This document shows, in pieces, positions 1,309 to 60,174 of a stretch of DNA of 64,000 nucleotides. Source of the stretch: Stereum hirsutum FP-91666 SS1 (taxonomy: Eukaryota; Basidiomycota; Agaricomycetes; Russulales; Stereaceae); NCBI RefSeq assembly GCF_000264905.1, contig NW_006763131.1, positions 3,671,753 to 3,735,752 of the forward strand, given 5' to 3'. The stretch's first letter is position 1, and each line of letters starts with the position of its first letter. A program made the translations under genes and the position numbers. The notes beneath the pieces were generated by a model that had not been told where the DNA came from, ran no database searches, and worked only from the letters and a program-made list of their open reading frames with translations.

Positions 1309-4300
1309 CTAGAATCCCAACTGCTCCACGAAATCCTGCCATGTAGCATCCAGAATAAGCGGTGTCTGCGCCGTCGTTGAGGATGTCGGCGGGGAGTCCG
1401 ACTGGGCTCTCGAAGTCGAGCTTGAGGCATACTGACCCAAGCCTTGCATCCCAACGAACATCGAGCTCGGTTCCGTGAACTCAGCGTCAAGATACGCTCC
1501 GCGCGAACTCGACGATACTTTCGCCAAACTGCGATGGACTGAGGAAATATCCTGCGTTTGTCCGTACTGTCCAGGATGTCTATTTCCTTGCGAATCTGAG
1601 GATGTGTAATCGAAGATGTTGTATAACGAAGAGGAAGTGGGATTAGGAAGGGTAGCGGAGGTGGAAGAAGTCGAGGTTCTGTGGCGACCGAACGGGGTGA
1701 TCGGCGTGAAGTCGTACTTGTATGCTGTTTCTGCTGGTATCGCCGTCGGCTGTGGGTGAGGTGCCGCATTGTTGTTAATACTAGCCGGTCGTGGAACTCC
1801 TGCTGTATCTGCTTGACTTGGAATTGGAATTGGATGCGAGGGGCCCGCTGAATTTGGCGAACTGTCTGTAGAGGCAGCGGGTACAGCGGTTGCCATGCCA
1901 GGGGTAGAAAGTCTTTGTGTCATCGCTCCTAATCTAGAGAGCTCTTCGAGGTTCCTATCCTGCCCTGTGACGGTCTCCGTCCGGTTTGGTGAGCGATAGT
2001 TGTCCATCGCTTCGTGACCCTGTCTGTGTAGACTCCGCATGGCGTTCTGGAAGTAGAGAGATGTTTGAGAATAATTGTATATGAGGCCGAAAGAAAGACG
2101 TACCAGAATGTCGGCAGCAGGATGACTCCCGAAGAGTACTGAGTGCTCGAAGAAGCTTAACACAAAATCGAGCCGCTCGAGTGCTCCAACGGCGAGGGAG
2201 CTTGAGGGGGCGTTCGTGACCAGGAGGCACATTACGATCTACAGATAATGTAGTGAGATCGGAGGACAATCGGAGTTTGGAAATATAAATCAGGAGAGCT
2301 ACGTGGGTTAACGTAGAGTTTGGCGGTGGAGGTAGATCAGACAGAAGTCCGTGGTAAATGACATACCGCTGACGAAAGGACCTTGGACCATCCGAAGCTG
2401 AATCTGAAGACTGCAATCGGCGGTGTAAGGTCAAACCAACTGTGATATCTGGGAGAGTATGTGACCATAGCCATACAAGACTGTGGTATTGCCCCTACCG
2501 CTTTCGATCCTGCCTCGATTATACGGTTTGCAGCTCGGTATATGGCCAACACGGAGGGCCCATATTTGTGTTGGACTGGATCAACGGAGTGATCACGAAT
2601 CGCGGCCGCAAAATATGGCCGATGGAGATTCAGGAGGGCTTTGGAAAAAGGAACAGTCAACCTCCCACCATCAAGACGTGGAAAGGAACGCACTTACTCC
2701 ATTCTGTATTGGATAGAATAATCCACCGTCTCACAACAAGTCTTGTTGGGCTGGCATGGCTTTGGGCAGGATCAGATCGCAGATAGTCTGGGATGTCTAT
2801 ATCCCTGATCATACTATCGAGCTCGAGGATAGTCCGATAGTGTGGCGGACGTGCACCAAATGCTTTGACCATGACATCGTGTAGCGACTGAGAGTATAAA
2901 TAACACCAATTGTACCCTACAAATCATGAATATCATTAATAAAGCAAGGAGACGATGATGACTGTATTAAACGACGCACAGCCCATGCTCTTGCTCCCGT
3001 CAGGGTTCGTATATTGCTCAAAATCGTCAGGAAGCGAACAGTTGACGAACACAGGATTGAAGGTTGGCGGTCTCCCGAATCCGAAACTCTGTGAGAGATT
3101 TAAGACTTCAATATCAGTTCTAGATATCTAAGGCGTACATTCCATGCATCAAGGGCGAATAGGTGCCAAAAGCAGCGGCTGCGCTTTTGGCTCTCCTCAC
3201 GGCCTATTCCCCATGGTGTGCCGTCGCGGTCTGGGGGTCTACATGTTAGAGACGCCTACATGATGATATCGATTCGACTTACGCAACCCCATCTGTGAAA
3301 GACATTTTGAGTACCCCACACGCGTCAGATGTATGTGTGAAATTGGCCATGACTTACACCTTGCGCTAGCTTTGAAGCTAATCCTATATACATCCAAGAC
3401 CTGGAGGACCCTCCGGGGAACAAGCCCGCATCACACATCTCTAGATATTGGCCCATGAAAGTCTGTGATATTGGATCAATTAGTGCCATGGTACGTAACA
3501 GAGATATTGAGATATCTTTACTGTTGCTTGAACGGCAGTAACGGTGGCTCGCCGTACGAATGGTTTCACTATGAGCGCCGCCCGACAGAGGGAAAAGTAA
3601 TCGTGAGCGGCAATTAAATGATCCGTGGCAGACATGTCGTAATATTTTCCTAGGCAGATTATAATGTAGAATAATGCTAGGGAGTGTGACGAGTCCTCTG
3701 AGCCGATCGACCTGGTGCATGGTAAGTCTCGTCGGAATATAGTAAAGGAGATGACAGCTTACGAAGATTGATACAGTTCTGGTATTAATTCCTCAAACAG
3801 TTCTGTTCGAGTCATTGAAGTTGGGCTACACAGTCATCCGTTGTTAGAAAGATGAACTATCTTGTAATGGTATGGTTTGGTGACTTACAAGTAATTCGAA
3901 CACTCCATGAAAACGTCGGCCAATGTGTATGCTTCGGACAGAGGTGGCAGATGTGACCAGACGAGTGCTCTGACAGCTTCACTATCCCAATCGTCCTCAC
4001 ATTCCGGGAACGGGACGTCCAGTATGCGCGGATCAAGTTGGCTCTGTGAGAGATATGATGTTTTCTCGGTAGGGCGGGCTAACTGCATGGAAACATTGTC
4101 GTCGACACCGCGAAATCTTGCGGAACATTACGAGATCTTCTCACCTTGAGAAGATACTGATCCGGGGATAAGTCAGACATTAGGTCATGAGTGCCAAACA
4201 GGAGTGATAGCAACACACATCTGATCTGGCAGTGGCTCCCAAAAACGTGGATTCGCCCTCGGCGCTGATATTGAGGGTTCCTGTGGAAAATCAGTAAGTG

Positions 4301-5026
4301 TTACATCCGTTTGAGGGAAACAATGGGTAAACGTACCAAAGGCTTCGACCACATCTTCCTCCTGGACGTTGTCTTCCATGCTCTCCTCCGCCACATCCTT
4401 CGGCGTAGAGCCAACAGGCGACGACCTATTCTCCAGAAGTGGATGTGGTTCACTCGAAACAGTAGCCTGTAGTAAGGAGAGGCCATGCTCCAGCTCGCGA
4501 ACCCTGATAGTCAGCGCATCAATCTGGGCATGTAGCTCTTCCGTATTGGCGAGGATATATCTGCGGGTCATTACAATCAAAACATCATGCATCATTCCCA
4601 AGCTGTTACAGAAACACGCACCTATTTTTTTGTGGACCGGTCGCTAGGGTACCTACGCGCCATGCACATGAGGGAAGAAGCAAGTCAGATGCAAGATGAG
4701 GTCGTACCAGTTGGACAAATCGCTGCACATCCTCGTTTCGAGCACGTCTCACAGGGCACCTGTATCTCTGCGAGTGAGTTCACAGAAAATGGCACTGAAA
4801 GCCAAGCATTCCCCGCACTTTTCTATCACAGCGCAACTTCAACCTGTAAGGCATTCGGGTCATTAGCATCCACTACCGCCGGCTACGAGGGGAGTAGAAA
4901 AAACCTCCGACATTCAGCACAGCTGACCGGAACCCTTCCTGGCCGCTTGCGCTGCTTTTGAGCAGGAGATGGATCATCCGTCGCCTTCGTCTTGCCCTTG
5001 TCTGTCGGTGGGACTTTTGGAGCCAT
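1309..5026 (-). CDS. Zn2Cys6 fungal transcription factor with fungal_trans middle domain
   Basis: The start codon is at 5024-5026 (MAPKVPPTDKGKTK), followed by a basic stretch and a binuclear zinc cluster split over three exons. The spacing is CX2CX6CX5CX2CX8C, starting CAECRRLKLRCD and continuing VPCETCSKRGC. A coiled-coil linker follows near 4200-4560 (HAQIDALTIRVRELEHGL), typical of the dimerisation element after such clusters. The middle exons (about 2340-4090) fit the fungal-specific transcription factor domain, with stretches such as YLEMCDAGLFPGG, SWMYIGLASKLAQG, GIGREE and RPPTFN. The last exon is a long Ser/Pro/Thr-rich tail ending ATWQDFVEQLGF, a likely activation region. There are about ten short introns. 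The regulated pathway cannot be read from the sequence; the neighbours are mitotic genes and suggest no target. Confidence 0.88.
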
Positions 5027-5801
5027 GTATTAGGGTCCAGAACGGAGTACAGGTGTAAGGTGATCCGAAACGGGCCACAGAGAGCGATTCAACGACGCCG
5101 AGATGTTCAGAGAATGAAGGACCACAATTCCGACGCGGTCAGGGTGGGTGATGGTACAGAATATAAATGCGAGGCTATGGCCCCTGACGTCTCCTCGCGA
5201 TGGGCTCAGTCAGCAATCTAATCTTATCTTCTATGATCTCGGGTGCTTAATGCTTCCGTGATTGGCAGTTCGATCTCCGCGGCTCTGGATCTTCTTGCTA
5301 TTTTGGGAATAAACTTTCCTCTCTCGGCAAAGAAAGAACGCCACCAGACTGAGAAAGCATCAAACCTTCAGCAGAGTGCACGTCGGGTACGTTGTGGTGA
5401 CCCACTACTTCCGTGATGTTAGTTCTTGTTAGTTGCGCCCAAAATTTGAGCTGAGCCTCAAATGTAAGGCCTGATTTGCAAAGAGATTCGTAGGACGCTG
5501 GTGAAACGACTTCACTGTATTTAGCCTGTGCACCACGAGTTAATCCGTCTTACAAGGAGTCCGGGCAGATTCAAAACTCAGAGCTCCGGAAATAGTGGAC
5601 CTCGATGTGCAGTTTCCATCCACGATCAACCAGCGACGAATGCGCTGTAGTCCAGAGACTTGCCATTTGGCAGTGAACTAGCAACGCAGATAGAAAATAC
5701 AACAACAGAGGCAAATCGAAAAGAAAAAGAAATATCGTCAGACATAATACAAACAACCTCGACTTCGACCTCGACACCCGAGGCACTACGGCATCTCCTG
5801 C
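5027..5801. other. Intergenic, no gene seen
   Basis: This lies between the start of the Zn2Cys6 gene and the 3' end of the kinesin, both on the minus strand. It should hold the promoter of the transcription factor gene. The short open frames here have no recognisable domain and no convincing splice structure. Confidence 0.6.
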
Positions 5802-8800
5802 TTATTTACTACCCCGAGTGCTGCGACGGGTAGTTTTCCCAACGCTCGCCTTCGATACTTGCTCTTCTTCATCCTCGTACTGATCCTCAGTCACCACAGG
5901 CGCACTCCCCAGCTGTCTGTACACCCATCAAAATCAGCGTCTGCCAAAAATACACCTTGAGTATGGACTTACCGTGTCTTCTTCTGCACAGTTTTTCCCT
6001 GCGCAGACTTCTTCGAAACGTTCTTGGGTGGCACAATGATCGCAGAGTCGTCGTAATCCTCATCATCCTCCGGCTCGGTGTCATCATCATTACGAGGTTG
6101 ACGGGACACAGGTGGTGCTTTAGCCTTGGAGGGATTGCTCGTACGAGAAGAGCGGCGATTAGAAATTCGGCGGCCGCTGTCCGCTGTAGAAGAACTTGGA
6201 TCAACGGCGAGTTTGCCCATATCGTCGGTTATCTCCGAAACGTCGCTTTGCCCCTTGCGAGTCGAGGTCCTTTTCGCTTTGACTGTCTGGGGTGGCAGAG
6301 GCGCAGTATCCTCTTTGAAGATCATAGGGGGGAGCTGCTTCAGAGGAGAGTGTGGCAGTATTGTGCGCGGCGGAGGACCTTTTGCTGGCGCTTTTGCTTT
6401 CGGCGTTGGCTGCCCCTTGGAGGACTCAGGGACCCAATCTTCCTCATCCGTTTCTTCTTCCGACTCGTCCGTCCCTGTCGCACCGTCGTCTGATCCTTCA
6501 GCGTCTTTTGAATCCGTTCCTGCGTGGCTCGTGTCGCCGTCATGGTAACTCCCATCATCGTCTTCCCCCTCATCATCCTCCGTCTCCTCCTCGCTGTCCT
6601 CGTCTCCCACACTCTCAGTCACCCGACTTTCCGTCTCCGTGCCTGTGTCTTCAGCGTCCTCGTCATCTGACGGAAGAATGATGTGCTCGGGCTCCGGTCC
6701 AGAAGACATGGGCACGCGGATCTCAGAGCGTCGAACAGACTGCTTAGGGAACCTATTCGACGCGGACTTGCTTTTGCCTGCCAGAGGGGACAAAGATTCG
6801 GAGCGGTTCGAGCTCATCTCGGATTCGTCTTCTTCCTCAGACGGATCTTCCTCTTCAATCTATCGCAAATTTATTTTATCAACCCTAGATCCTATATCAA
6901 GATACGAATGGGAAGGACGTACAATACTCATCTCAACATCTTCCTCATCCTCCAGGTCCTCCAATACCCGTCTGGACTTGCCAGGAGTCTTTCCGAAGAG
7001 ACCAGACTGATGTAGCATATCTATCTTGGCATCTATCTTCATCTCATGTTGCTCGACCTAACGTGCATGATAGACCGAAATGTGCAGTTAGAACGTTTAT
7101 CCCATCTCGAAACTAAGGCGTAAGACCTGCGCTTACCTCGTTCATCAACCGCCGAGCGAACATCTTCTCCATATTTCGGATTCTCTCCTCCATTTCTTGC
7201 ATGACTTCCTCACGTGTCTCGGCTTCGATGATTGCGCAGCGCATCTCTGCATTATAAACCTTTATTGCAAAGCCATCAATACATACCCAAAGGAGTGATA
7301 CGGACGTGTCGTACCTGCATACGCATCACTTCAAGCTCGTCAAACAAGGCTTCGACCAGCGGGTTTAACGGTTCATCGTCAAAGTCATCTTCGACCGACG
7401 TTTCTTCGTCCTCTGCCGGGGTGTGTCAGCCATCGTTCAAAGCGCTAGCACGAAGGTTCCATTGCATACCTTCGACAATCTCCACTTCCGCCTTGCTGGG
7501 TTTCCTCCCACCGTGTCCTTCAGTCGACAGCGTGACTGTTCGACGGTGTGGAACGACTTCGCGACTCTTTGCAGCGGCGCGTTGAGGGATCAAAGTCTTG
7601 CTCGGCGTAGGTGGTACTCTCTGGGCCGGTGCAGCGGTATAGACTTCCTTCGCAAGAGCGGCGAATTTCATGACGTGAGAATTCTCGTCGTAGCCCGTAT
7701 CGTAAGGGTTCACATTGACGATCATAACCTGACAATAATAGTCGCGTAAGTCAATGACCAACGGGGCATAGCCATCTCAAGAATAAAAAGGCGGACTGAC
7801 TGCTCGACCATCGCCCGTGAAGTAATCCATAAGAACCTCAGTAAGCTTGCTGTGGCGGAACGGCACGACCGCCAATGATTTCTTGACATCACGGGTGTCC
7901 GAACGCTGGTGCTTTGGACCGCCGAGACTCTGAGCCACACGACGCTGGTTAGCACGCATAACCTCCATGCATTGGCCAAGGACCATGAGAGACTTGTTGA
8001 TGTTGCCCGCTTCCTTGAGGCGATCACCAGTCGTTTGTGTGTGTTTAGTGCGTTCTGAACCAGCCAAATCGACGAGTGTAAGGCGGCATGTGTTGAAAGA
8101 GGCCGGTTCCTATAGGACATGTAAGTTTGGAGCACGAAACAAGATTGGGCCGTAAGAAAAAAAAAATACTCACGTCTGGTTCACCACGATGCTTCCGAAG
8201 TAATTTGATCGTCACCATTCCGTGGCTGCGACTACTCTGACTGTTCGCCAATGTCCCAAACACCCTCCTATGCAACTGCCCCAACCTCACAAGGGTCTTC
8301 GCCTCCCCCGCATTGTTCACTCGAATGTGCTTCAGACCCGAGACATACTTCCCCGCCATCGTACCCGGGGGTCCGTCCCACCCGTCAGAAGGAGGCGAAG
8401 GTTTGATAGGCAAAGCTTTCCTCGTCAACAGAACCGGGCGTCGGGATTGACGCGAACCAGCATTGGCATCCTCTACGTCGGCAAGGAGGTCGTAGATCTT
8501 CTCGTTATAGACCTCCGAGTAGGAGAGCCAGATAGAATATTCGTGGTTACGATCGACGGAGAGTACAGTTGGGTCGATGTCCGTATCGAGGTTTACGTTC
8601 TCCTCAAGATGTTCAGCGAGGACTTCTGCTAAAATGGGCTCATCGATGGTGTCCAGAGATGGACCTCGTGTGGACATTTCAAGGGATCCGTCACCGGATT
8701 CGATACCATGGAGTCGGACAGGCCGATGCTGAGCAACAAGAGGTTAAGCTCCCATTCAGAGCGTTCAGGTGACGGGTGTGCTTGCCTTTGAGTTACTTTG

Positions 8801-9578
8801 CAATCCCTCAATACTATTGAATATCACATCAAGCGTCCTAGGAAGAATACCAGCAGAACCGGGTTCGGAGCCACCTTGCATGGTGTACGTCTTCCCGGAG
8901 TTCGTAACACCATAGGCAAATAGCAAGCCATTCTCGCCATCGAGGAGGCCTCGCACGAGTGGCAGAGTGGTCTTTTTGAAGAACTCAGACTGAAGTGACG
9001 AGTCGGGGAAGACATGGGAGAAGCTATAGATGGATGGTTGTGGCACTACGGATGGCCGGAAACGATTTCGGGAGGGAGCATTCTGAATCTCATCCTGAGC
9101 AGGGTCGGACATTCTAACAGAGACATCGGTAAGATGTTCAAGATAGGGCACTGATGTTGAAGGTCCATCATTGAGATGGGGGCGAATGCGGAGGAATGCC
9201 TGGTTTGTTGTGTTGATTCTCATTCATTAAGATACTGAGAAATCAGAACGTACCTTTATGGGCTCCCTGTCATTATCCACAGGAACAACCGTTGGTTTAG
9301 ATGTCTTCGCCGCGACATTCTTAGGTACTGCAGCTTTCTAGAGCGCGCAGCCATACTGTAAATCGCATAAATCTGCAGAAAACAAAAGCTTTCCGTACAT
9401 TATTGGTCTGCCTTGCTTTCGTTGCAGGAGCCGCCTTTGTGGTTTTGGCCCGAGTGCTGGCTGTCGTCGTCGCAGCCTGACTCGGAGCTGGCTGGGTCTG
9501 GGCTGTGGATCTCGTCGTCCGAGACGAGGGTCTTGCTGGGGGTACTGAGGGCGCTGAGGGTTTCGTTCGGGTGGCCAT
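5802..9578 (-). CDS. Kinesin-6 family mitotic motor
   Basis: The start at 9576-9578 gives a basic Ala/Thr/Lys-rich N-terminal extension of about 90 residues. The motor then begins at AFLRIRPHL. The P-loop is GVTNSGKTYT, with the Val-Thr-Asn of kinesin-6 rather than the usual AYGQTGSGKT. Switch I is NSQSSRSHG and switch II is followed by AGSERTKHTQTTGDRLKE and NINKSLMVLG. Between the P-loop and switch I is a long acidic insertion (LAEVLAEHLEENVNLDTD...) at the loop-6 position, another kinesin-6 hallmark. Neck, coiled coil (EEVMQEMEERIRNMEKMF) and a long acidic Ser-rich tail follow, ending TTRRSTRGSK. Family members (KIF20, KIF23, fission yeast Klp9) act at the central spindle in anaphase and cytokinesis. 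The gene is head-to-head with KNL1/Spc105 over a 279-bp shared promoter. Which kinesin-6 subgroup it belongs to is not resolved. Confidence 0.9.
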
Positions 9579-58039: not shown

Positions 58040-58812
58040 ACGTTACGGGAGGGAAATGCGTGCTTTCTTGGCTACGACTACCGTCACTGGGCAGGGGCAG
58101 CGGGCGAGGCATGGGCAAGGGCAAGGGCAAGGCACCGCAGAGACTCAGGTTGCAGCACGCTGGATAGTCGTTGTCTGGTCGAGATGGATATTCCAGGCTT
58201 TGTTGAAGTGTCGAAAAGCCGCAGAGAGTGGAGCGAAGAGTTTGGAGGACGTCTGTCGAGGGCAGGGAACGTCTCCGAAAGCGGTAATGGGTGGACCGTG
58301 CGTGTCAAAGCGCAGGAGCTGAAAATGTCGGCTGGGTAAAAGTAGAGGGGTTCTCATCGGCGCCTTTGCCGCAGCCCGGGATGACAGGCCTAGGATTGAT
58401 GGCCAAAAGGAGCACTGAGTGCTGAGCGCGCGACGTCCCGCAAAGCATAAGGACCGGTGATATCACGCGCAGAAAAGATCCGAACAAGGAGAGTATTGTT
58501 TTCGCTCGAGCACAGAGAAAACATACAAAAAGGCGGATGGAGGGCAGAATAACAATGATAATAAACATAATAAACAGGGGGAGTGGGAGGAGTGGAGCGG
58601 GGTGTGTGCCTGAGCCAGGAACGGAAGGCACGGCGTGCAGATGCAGCCAGCGATCTCATCGGCGCACACGGCCCACCAATCAGCAAACGTGAACGCAAAG
58701 TCTATTCGGTCACACAAGACGGCATATATAGCCAGCCCATACCCATCGACGGCCATCCCTCACTCCGCTCTTTTGCCCCCCCCGCGCTCATTCCCCTCAT
58801 CAGCTTCAAACC
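58040..58812. promoter_or_regulatory. Upstream region of the repeat-peptide gene, with TATA box
   Basis: TATATA at 58725-58730 lies 83 nt before the ATG at 58813, followed by a CT-rich leader (about 58755-58800). This is a strong, simple fungal promoter layout. GGCAAGGGCAAGGGCAAGG near 58113-58131 is a short imperfect repeat. No gene is seen between 58040 and 58812. Confidence 0.55.
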
Positions 58813-59416
58813 ATGAAGTTCTCGTATACCCCCCTGCTCCTTGTTCTCTTTGCTGCTTTCGTAGCGGCTCTACCAGTGCGTATATTCCCCGTCTTTCCAA
58901 TGTCGGACCCACGGAAACTGACGTACTTTATGTTACAGGCTGTACCAGTAAGCCGTGACCCTTCGCATTCCGTATTCATGTCGTGCTAAATGCCACATTG
59001 TCCACAGCGTATGTCTGGTGAAGGTGGAGACCAAGACTGGAAGAGAGTAGCTGTCCCAGACGTCGTAGAGGTGAGCTCCGTCATCACATGGGTCCGTGGG
59101 GCGGTGGCTAATTTTGCTTCGATCAAAGCGTATGTCGGGAGAAGGAGGCGACCAAGACTGGAAGAGGCTGTCTGGCAAGGGTGGTGACCAAGACTGGAAG
59201 AGAATGTCCGGAGAGGGTGGTGATCAAGATTGGAAGAGGATGTCTGGAGAGGGCGGCGATCAAGACTGGAAGAGAATGTCGGGTGAGGGCGGTGATCAAG
59301 ACTGGAGACGCTTTTCGGGAGAGGGCGGTGATCAGGACTGGAAGCGTATGTCCGGGGAAGGTGGTGACCAGGACTGGAGGCGGATGTCGGGTGAGGGTGG
59401 CGACCAAGACTGGTGA
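58813..59416 (+). CDS. Secreted Kex2-processed repeat peptide precursor, nine copies of MSGEGGDQDW
   Basis: Four exons, all phase 0: 58813-58875 (21 residues, signal peptide MKFSYTPLLLVLFAAFVAAL plus P), 58939-58947 (only AVP), 59008-59070 (one repeat plus VAVPDVVE) and 59129-59416. The product is about 140 residues. It carries nine decapeptides. Seven are MSGEGGDQDW; copy 3 is LSGKGGDQDW and copy 7 is FSGEGGDQDW. Copies 1-8 are followed by KR (six times) or RR (twice), and the last ends at the stop. Kex2-type proteases cut after KR or RR in the Golgi, so the predicted release is eight or nine acidic decapeptides ending in Trp. Each repeat exon opens with CGT (Arg) before Met. This is the layout of fungal KEP/RiPP precursors (ustiloxin, epichloecyclin and Rep1 types), but the core is unfamiliar and has no Tyr. 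No tailoring enzyme is seen within the window. Function could be signalling, surface or defence; unknown. Confidence 0.85.
59132..59416 (+). repeat. Coding tandem repeat, 36-bp unit, eight copies
   Basis: Exon 4 of the peptide gene is a perfect-length array of eight 36-bp units (the last lacks the KR codons). Starts are at 59132, 59168, 59204, 59240, 59276, 59312, 59348 and 59384. A ninth unit is in exon 3 at 59011. Units differ mainly at third codon positions. Confidence 0.95.
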
Positions 59417-60174
59417 CCGTTGTTGTGCTGTACTGTGAGTATAGTCCATCACCCTCCCCATCGACGCACCATCTAACGTCTGTTCACAGGCTTTGTTTCT
59501 TCTGGGTTATTGTCTCTCACTTTCGTCGCTGGGTCGCATTCTGTCTGCTGTAATGATCCCCGAACAGCGCCCACGGACGCTGTCTTTCTTTTTCTCTCCC
59601 CCTCATATTTCGTCCGCATTGTTGCGATACCTGCATTGTCTCGATGATTTGCTCACCATAATGGGTCGCCACGCTCTTTTTATGCTTGCTCTGTTTCCAT
59701 AGTACTCGCTGTGTTTGTACGAGTTTATTTCCGTGTCGCATTGTAGGTTATACCTGCATTTTCTTTTGGCCTGTCATTGGTCACTCGTGTTAGCGGGCGC
59801 ATTGCAATCAAAAAATTTGCCTGCCTGCCTGCCTATCTGCAATGTCCGTGATATCGTCTCCGCCGGTTGCCTGGTGAGTACGAGGGCTAGAAGAGAAGGT
59901 GAAGAATCAGTATATATGAAGTCTAAAAAGCTTGAGTTGGCAGAAGTTGTTCGAATGGCGGTGGAGATGAACCAATCGAAGGCAGGGCAAAGAAAAGCAA
60001 CTTTGCCACTCCTTGGGGCTAACGCTGTCGACGCGACGCGATTCTGTCACGTGACGGGAGAGCTGACTGTAGGGCAGGCTTTTTGGCGAGACGCGACGCG
60101 ATTCTTCAGTAATTGAACTCTGGACGCCTCTCGCATACCCCTCACCTCCTGCTCCACTCTCGGCTCCCCTCATC
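59417..60174. promoter_or_regulatory. 3' UTR of the peptide gene and MCM3 promoter
   Basis: A probable 3' UTR intron runs 59435-59489 (GTGAGT...TTCACAG), 18 nt after the stop codon. TGCC repeated four times lies at 59818-59833. Nearer MCM3, the 16-mer GACGCGACGCGATTCT occurs twice, at 60030-60045 and 60090-60105, exactly 60 bp apart. A CACGTG E-box is at 60048-60053. These CGCG repeats resemble MluI cell-cycle boxes, expected on DNA-replication genes. Sites are seen directly; regulation is inferred. Confidence 0.55.

Follow-up and report, generated by a model that had tools for sequence, protein, structure and literature searches.

Peptide precursors of the KEP type are widespread in fungi (PMC7329392, PMC6339444). 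According to PMC9769878, some of their peptides are proven mushroom products, and a function was sought in Coprinopsis cinerea with none found; the same source describes cores ending in Trp as common among basidiomycete KEPs. Mass spectrometry has detected MSGVAADW and SGVAADW in both Pleurotus ostreatus and P. eryngii, LSGVAADW in P. ostreatus, and SGTGEASAADW in fruiting bodies of shiitake (Lentinula) (PMC9769878). We group these Pleurotus and Lentinula peptides as SG...DW peptides, a grouping of our own, of which the peptide described here is, judged by its sequence, a probable new member. Its gene lies in the window, the 64,000-nucleotide stretch of DNA that was analysed, which spans 3.67-3.74 Mb of a 3.83-Mb contig in a genome of 46 Mb and 38 contigs.

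The gene is read on the forward strand from an ATG at 58813 to a stop codon ending at 59416 and, when spliced by consensus, yields a 140-residue protein from four coding exons. Exon 1 (58813..58875) encodes MKFSYTPLLLVLFAAFVAALP, 21 residues that form a putative signal peptide. Exon 2 (58939..58947) is a 9-nt microexon encoding AVP, and exon 3 (59008..59070) encodes an Arg, core 1 (MSGEGGDQDW, 59011-59040), KR and the spacer VAVPDVVE. Exon 4 (59129..59416) encodes another Arg followed by cores 2-9 in 36-nt units, with starts at 59132, 59168, 59204, 59240, 59276, 59312, 59348 and 59384, separated by KR or RR linkers and closed by TGA. The three introns removed, of 63 nt (58876..58938), 60 nt (58948..59007) and 58 nt (59071..59128), are all GT-AG and all in phase 0, with boundaries placed by consensus. 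With every intron in phase 0 and exons 2 and 3 each divisible by three in length, loss of either exon from the transcript would preserve the reading frame. The preliminary description had located a repeat-peptide precursor at 58813-59416, and this proved real, with exact coordinates, nine units and a 140-residue spliced reading. The microexon, flanked by phase-0 introns, might be overlooked by automatic gene callers. By motif match, a TATA-like element is present at 58725..58730 (+), 88 nt upstream of the ATG, and consensus sequences (GTGAGT...CTAAC...CACAG) mark a probable 3'-UTR intron of 55 nt at 59435..59489 (+), starting 18 nt past the stop codon.

On hydropathy alone, the N-terminus has the character of a secretion signal, with a mean Kyte-Doolittle value of 3.03 over residues 9-20, a value attained by 1.0% of the 484 ATG-initiated open stretches in the window, the precursor included. 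By the -3/-1 rule, we take the likeliest cut of the signal peptide to fall after A19. The precursor has no Cys, its C-terminus is GDQDW, and its sole Tyr is residue 5, inside the putative signal peptide.

The nine decapeptide units comprise seven copies of MSGEGGDQDW, one LSGKGGDQDW (unit 3) and one FSGEGGDQDW (unit 7). All eight linkers behind units 1-8 are dibasic (six KR, two RR) and are spelled by five different hexamers. A KR or RR had been claimed after each copy, which holds for 8/9 units but not for unit 9, which carries no linker and meets the stop codon directly. The near-identical repeats with KR, RR or KK spacing by which KEPs are recognised are present here in nine units and 8/8 linkers. 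A dibasic site stands directly before seven of the nine cores (units 3-9). Units 1 and 2 are preceded by PR and ER, so those two cores need cleavage after a single Arg, and equal yield from the nine cores would be conditional on it; such cleavage is deemed possible in PMC9769878 from products made in Pichia. XA or XP dipeptides directly before a core number 0/9, and a single KR-VA-VP-DVVE-R stretch lies between cores 1 and 2. The VA and VP of this spacer look like STE13 dipeptides, and AVP also precedes core 1; VAVPDVVE and AVP may be remnants of an older spaced unit whose spacer was lost in later units. The decapeptide is hydrophilic and acidic (GRAVY -1.5, pI 4.05). The preliminary reading of a Kex2-processed, secreted KEP-type precursor is supported by the hydrophobic N-terminus, the dibasic linkers and the nine repeats.

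The array is the top tandem repeat of the window, with Tandem Repeats Finder values of 303 at period 36 and 353 at period 108; the next array reaches 60. Identity at period 36 is 0.80 in the array, against a maximum of 0.40 when stretches of 282 bases elsewhere in the window are sampled at 6-base steps. It is also open in other frames and on both strands, as might be expected of a non-coding tandem repeat that is open by accident. However, variable columns at codon positions 1, 2 and 3 number 2/10, 0/10 and 9/10, and of 32 departures from the consensus of the units, 4 alter the amino acid, compared with a mean of 23.6 and a minimum of 14 in 20,000 null draws, none of which (0/20,000) reached 4 or fewer. 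The array looks coding in the frame given above, where its variation sits on third positions. As third positions vary while residues are conserved, a non-coding repeat is disfavoured, and we regard it as extremely unlikely. It may instead be asked whether the precursor works uncut, as a secreted repeat protein of the wall or matrix in which cleavage is incidental. The uniform 12-residue period would suit such a protein, and cleavage at this locus is predicted from sequence; on the other hand, 8/8 linkers are dibasic despite their five different hexamers, and other KEP precursors are demonstrably cut in Pleurotus, Lentinula and Pichia as described in PMC9769878. An intact protein is therefore a highly improbable reading.

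Cyclisation of the cores by UstYa (DUF3328) oxidases after the Kex2 cut would make the gene a dikaritin-type RiPP precursor. The ring of a dikaritin requires a Tyr in the core, and here Tyr occurs in 0/9 cores and Phe in 1/9. Dikaritins such as ustiloxin, phomopsin and asperipin do share the precursor layout (PMC9769878), and with at least 30 UstYa matches in the genome an enzyme might work from a distant locus, but the nearest UstYa on the same contig, among the matches listed, ends at 639,191, which is 3.1 Mb away. The window has 102 ORFs with 130 residues or more, and 26 of these, all beyond its first 43 kb, were scanned for protein families; with one further read-through, the scan takes in 26 of the 30 ORFs starting at or after 45 kb. 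In the 20 kb beyond the right-hand end of the window, it took in 15 of 17 ORFs with 150 residues or more. Upstream lie Myb pieces (50.6-52.2 kb), WD40 pieces (52.7-54.6 kb) and alpha/beta hydrolase and zinc-finger pieces. Downstream are pieces of an MCM helicase (60.07-62.8 kb), then a DUF3500 gene that extends beyond the window end and, beyond it, TTL-, CDC50- and 2EXR-like pieces. None of the scanned neighbour ORFs matched UstYa or another peptide-modifying family, so that no known RiPP cluster type was found at the locus. In Basidiomycota generally, UstYa was reported within 15 genes of just 103 of 1680 KEPs (Umemura, PMC7329392). We consider a dikaritin very unlikely. The contrast with dikaritins drawn in the preliminary description is upheld by the lack of core Tyr and of a nearby UstYa match, and the RiPP half of its label is unsupported here. 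Elsewhere in the genome, several UstYa matches lie near one another on contig 1 (0.26-0.64 Mb) and on contigs 5, 9, 17, 20, 21 and 25; these regions are possible RiPP loci.

The Kex2-spaced repeats, the multiple copies per precursor, the putative secretion and the basidiomycete host also recall Rep1 of Ustilago maydis, and the peptides might accordingly be surface-active or structural and form fibrils on hyphae. Rep1 peptides, however, are 37 residues long (PMC6339444) and are described as making amyloid-like fibrils (PMC9769878), whereas the peptide here has 10 residues and is very hydrophilic and acidic at the GRAVY and pI given above. A Rep1-like role seems improbable.

No second copy of the gene was found in the 46-Mb genome, in which the seven exact matches to the repeat unit all lie in the gene itself. 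The precursor protein gave four matches, three of which are its own exons. The fourth, on contig 11 (E 0.031), was considered as a paralogue and rejected as chance: the locus encodes an oxysterol-binding protein, with three of the six frames scanned matching PF01237 (one above the cut-off and two below), and the frame that holds the precursor match is without any family. A loose pattern of paired W-(K/R)-R sites had at least 225 forward and at least 205 reverse matches in the genome, with 190 and 175 in controls. A tighter pattern of paired DW-(K/R)R sites, which excludes CGN at the first basic position, had 13 matches, six in the gene and seven elsewhere, with 8 and 4 in controls; the seven outside matches are isolated pairs, and by this pattern there is therefore no other such array. 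Searches of PDB, Pfam and NCBIfam with the precursor returned no match. The lack of a second copy and the small number of product variants make the gene handy for knockout and synthetic-peptide tests.

We conclude with considerable confidence that the gene is a basidiomycete KEP, probably of a mushroom-forming species, whose product would be secreted and cut by Kex2 into linear, Trp-ended decapeptides, most likely of the SG...DW type and likeliest to act as a non-mating signal. What the sequence itself shows is a consistent gene model with coding constraint on the peptide, together with its repeats and cleavage motifs, and the genome holds Kex2-, S10- and DPPIV-type domains. Pieces of an S8 protease (subtilase) and of a P-domain, the combination seen in Kex2, are grouped on contig 3, and the P-domain match is the only one found in the genome; C. 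cinerea is reported to have three Kex2 genes (PMC9769878). DPPIV-type peptidase pieces, of the STE13 type, are on contig 7. Serine carboxypeptidases (S10, the Kex1 family) gave 27 matches over several contigs, among which a Kex1 orthologue was not singled out. These searches were run exon by exon, so match counts do not equal gene numbers. We infer splicing, secretion, cleavage and release, as well as the role of the peptides, along the following route. The signal peptide would direct the precursor to the ER, and on reaching the late Golgi it would be cleaved by a Kex2 protease after KR or RR and probably also after the single Arg that precedes cores 1 and 2. The trailing basic residues would then be removed by a carboxypeptidase of the Kex1 type. 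The secreted decapeptides would be linear and acidic and would end in Trp; most would be MSGEGGDQDW, and each precursor would also give a single LSGKGGDQDW and a single FSGEGGDQDW. Their likeliest role would be that of an extracellular signal, unrelated to mating, that acts from hypha to hypha or within the fruiting body.

Basidiomycete lipopeptide pheromones end in a C-terminal CaaX, and ascomycete alpha-type pheromones contain Trp. The precursor has neither a Cys nor a CaaX end, and the contrast with lipopeptide pheromones made in the preliminary description is supported. Mating pheromones of basidiomycetes are described as lipidated a-type peptides (PMC9769878), and a mating role is therefore unlikely. 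Alpha-pheromone-like KEPs are reported from Basidiomycota (PMC7329392, PMC6339444). STE2 receptors are reported from Ascomycota only (PMC12842992, PMC13308352). In a whole-genome profile search for STE2, no match exceeded the 27.2-bit cut-off and two fell below it, at 20.1 and 19.1 bits. These sub-threshold matches, to profile positions 38-86, lie on contig 7 in the interval 290000-299999, in a pair of inverted, closely similar genes at about 3800-5143 (-) and 8096-9472 (+) of that interval; a further scan there gave 21.5 bits. The pair looks seven-helix, with helices judged by eye and copies that may be broken or intron-bearing; a hand-joined model had no match in a PDB sequence search. For Agaricomycotina, PMC12842992 predicts a large family of orphan seven-helix proteins. 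One might imagine that Agaricomycetes retain an alpha-factor-like axis uncoupled from mating, in which SG...DW peptides would be the ligands of orphan seven-helix receptors, possibly of the contig 7 family, but we see this as a long shot. STE3 gave 23 matches (22 above the cut-off), all on contig 11, which fits a basidiomycete with several STE3 receptors; Agaricomycetes are reported to hold most STE3-class receptors among fungal groups (PMC12842992). The matches, at 0.46-0.57, 0.95 and 1.14 Mb, probably mark a B mating-type region together with additional receptors.

For the peptides of this KEP, a linear, secreted, non-mating signal is the role that we tentatively favour, at somewhat short of an even chance. 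An effect on other organisms comes second and is the more doubtful of the two. The authors of PMC9769878 tend to see KEPs as involved in interactions with the biotic environment, and the synthetic KEP peptides tested there did not inhibit bacteria. As six KEP knockouts in C. cinerea are reported there to have no apparent phenotype, a signalling role lacks experimental backing. Should the peptides be signals, they would form a class of mushroom communication beyond the known lipopeptide pheromones.

The gene is real and well delimited, and the sequence of its peptide is new to the literature searched, while the kind of peptide is already known. It had been called unfamiliar and possibly new, which stands for the string MSGEGGDQDW, not found in that literature (supplementary tables excluded), but not for the type, since Trp-ended SG...DW peptides have already been detected by mass spectrometry in the work described in PMC9769878. 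An (X)SG start and a DW end are present in 9/9 cores. The -AADW end of the reported peptides is absent and DQDW closes 9/9 cores, which places the peptide beside the -AADW peptides and not among them. The proposed link would depend on just five positions in a short peptide. By a post hoc estimate with approximate residue frequencies, the chance that a random core fits [MLF]SG...DW is ~4.5e-7 and rises to 4.1e-5 when a terminal Trp is taken as given; 0.004 to 0.32 chance matches would be expected in 7878 KEPs, the upper value with the terminal-Trp figure, under which a chance match somewhere among known KEPs is possible. Type #7 of Umemura, which has the widest spread of the KEP types (49 genera; PMC7329392), was also considered; it is described as high in Tyr and was not equated with this gene.

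Among known systems, ascomycete alpha-type pheromone precursors share secretion, Kex2-spaced copies (PMC9769878) and Trp in the peptide, but the cores here lack preceding STE13 dipeptides, and the genome has no STE2 match above the cut-off. Dikaritins have the same precursor architecture, from which this gene departs in its Tyr-free cores and the lack of a nearby UstYa match. C. cinerea KEP 490115 (QYKAPSW and QMRPPSW, made in Pichia; PMC9769878) is likewise a basidiomycete KEP with a C-terminal Trp, but has STE13 spacers, a -PSW end and a core that contains Lys or Arg, in contrast to the acidic main core of this gene. Lentinula edodes KEP 2599, with seven copies of SGTGEASAADW, shares a comparable repeat number, the SG start, the DW end and acidity, and the passages on it in PMC9769878 do not mention STE13 spacers; its core differs in having 11 residues, no N-terminal Met and an -AADW end. 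P. ostreatus KEP 1091723 and P. eryngii KEP 1439342, as described, resemble the gene in their Kex2-flanked repeats, the M/L-S-G start and the D-W end, and the swap of Met and Leu at position 1 is common to both (LSGVAADW in P. ostreatus). Their cores have 8 residues and end in -VAADW, whereas those here end in -EGGDQDW, and the Pleurotus precursors carry XA/XP (STE13) spacers, of which the gene has none before its nine cores, with the VAVP after core 1 as a reminiscence. That the SG and DW ends are kept while the middle differs hints at which residues of these peptides matter.
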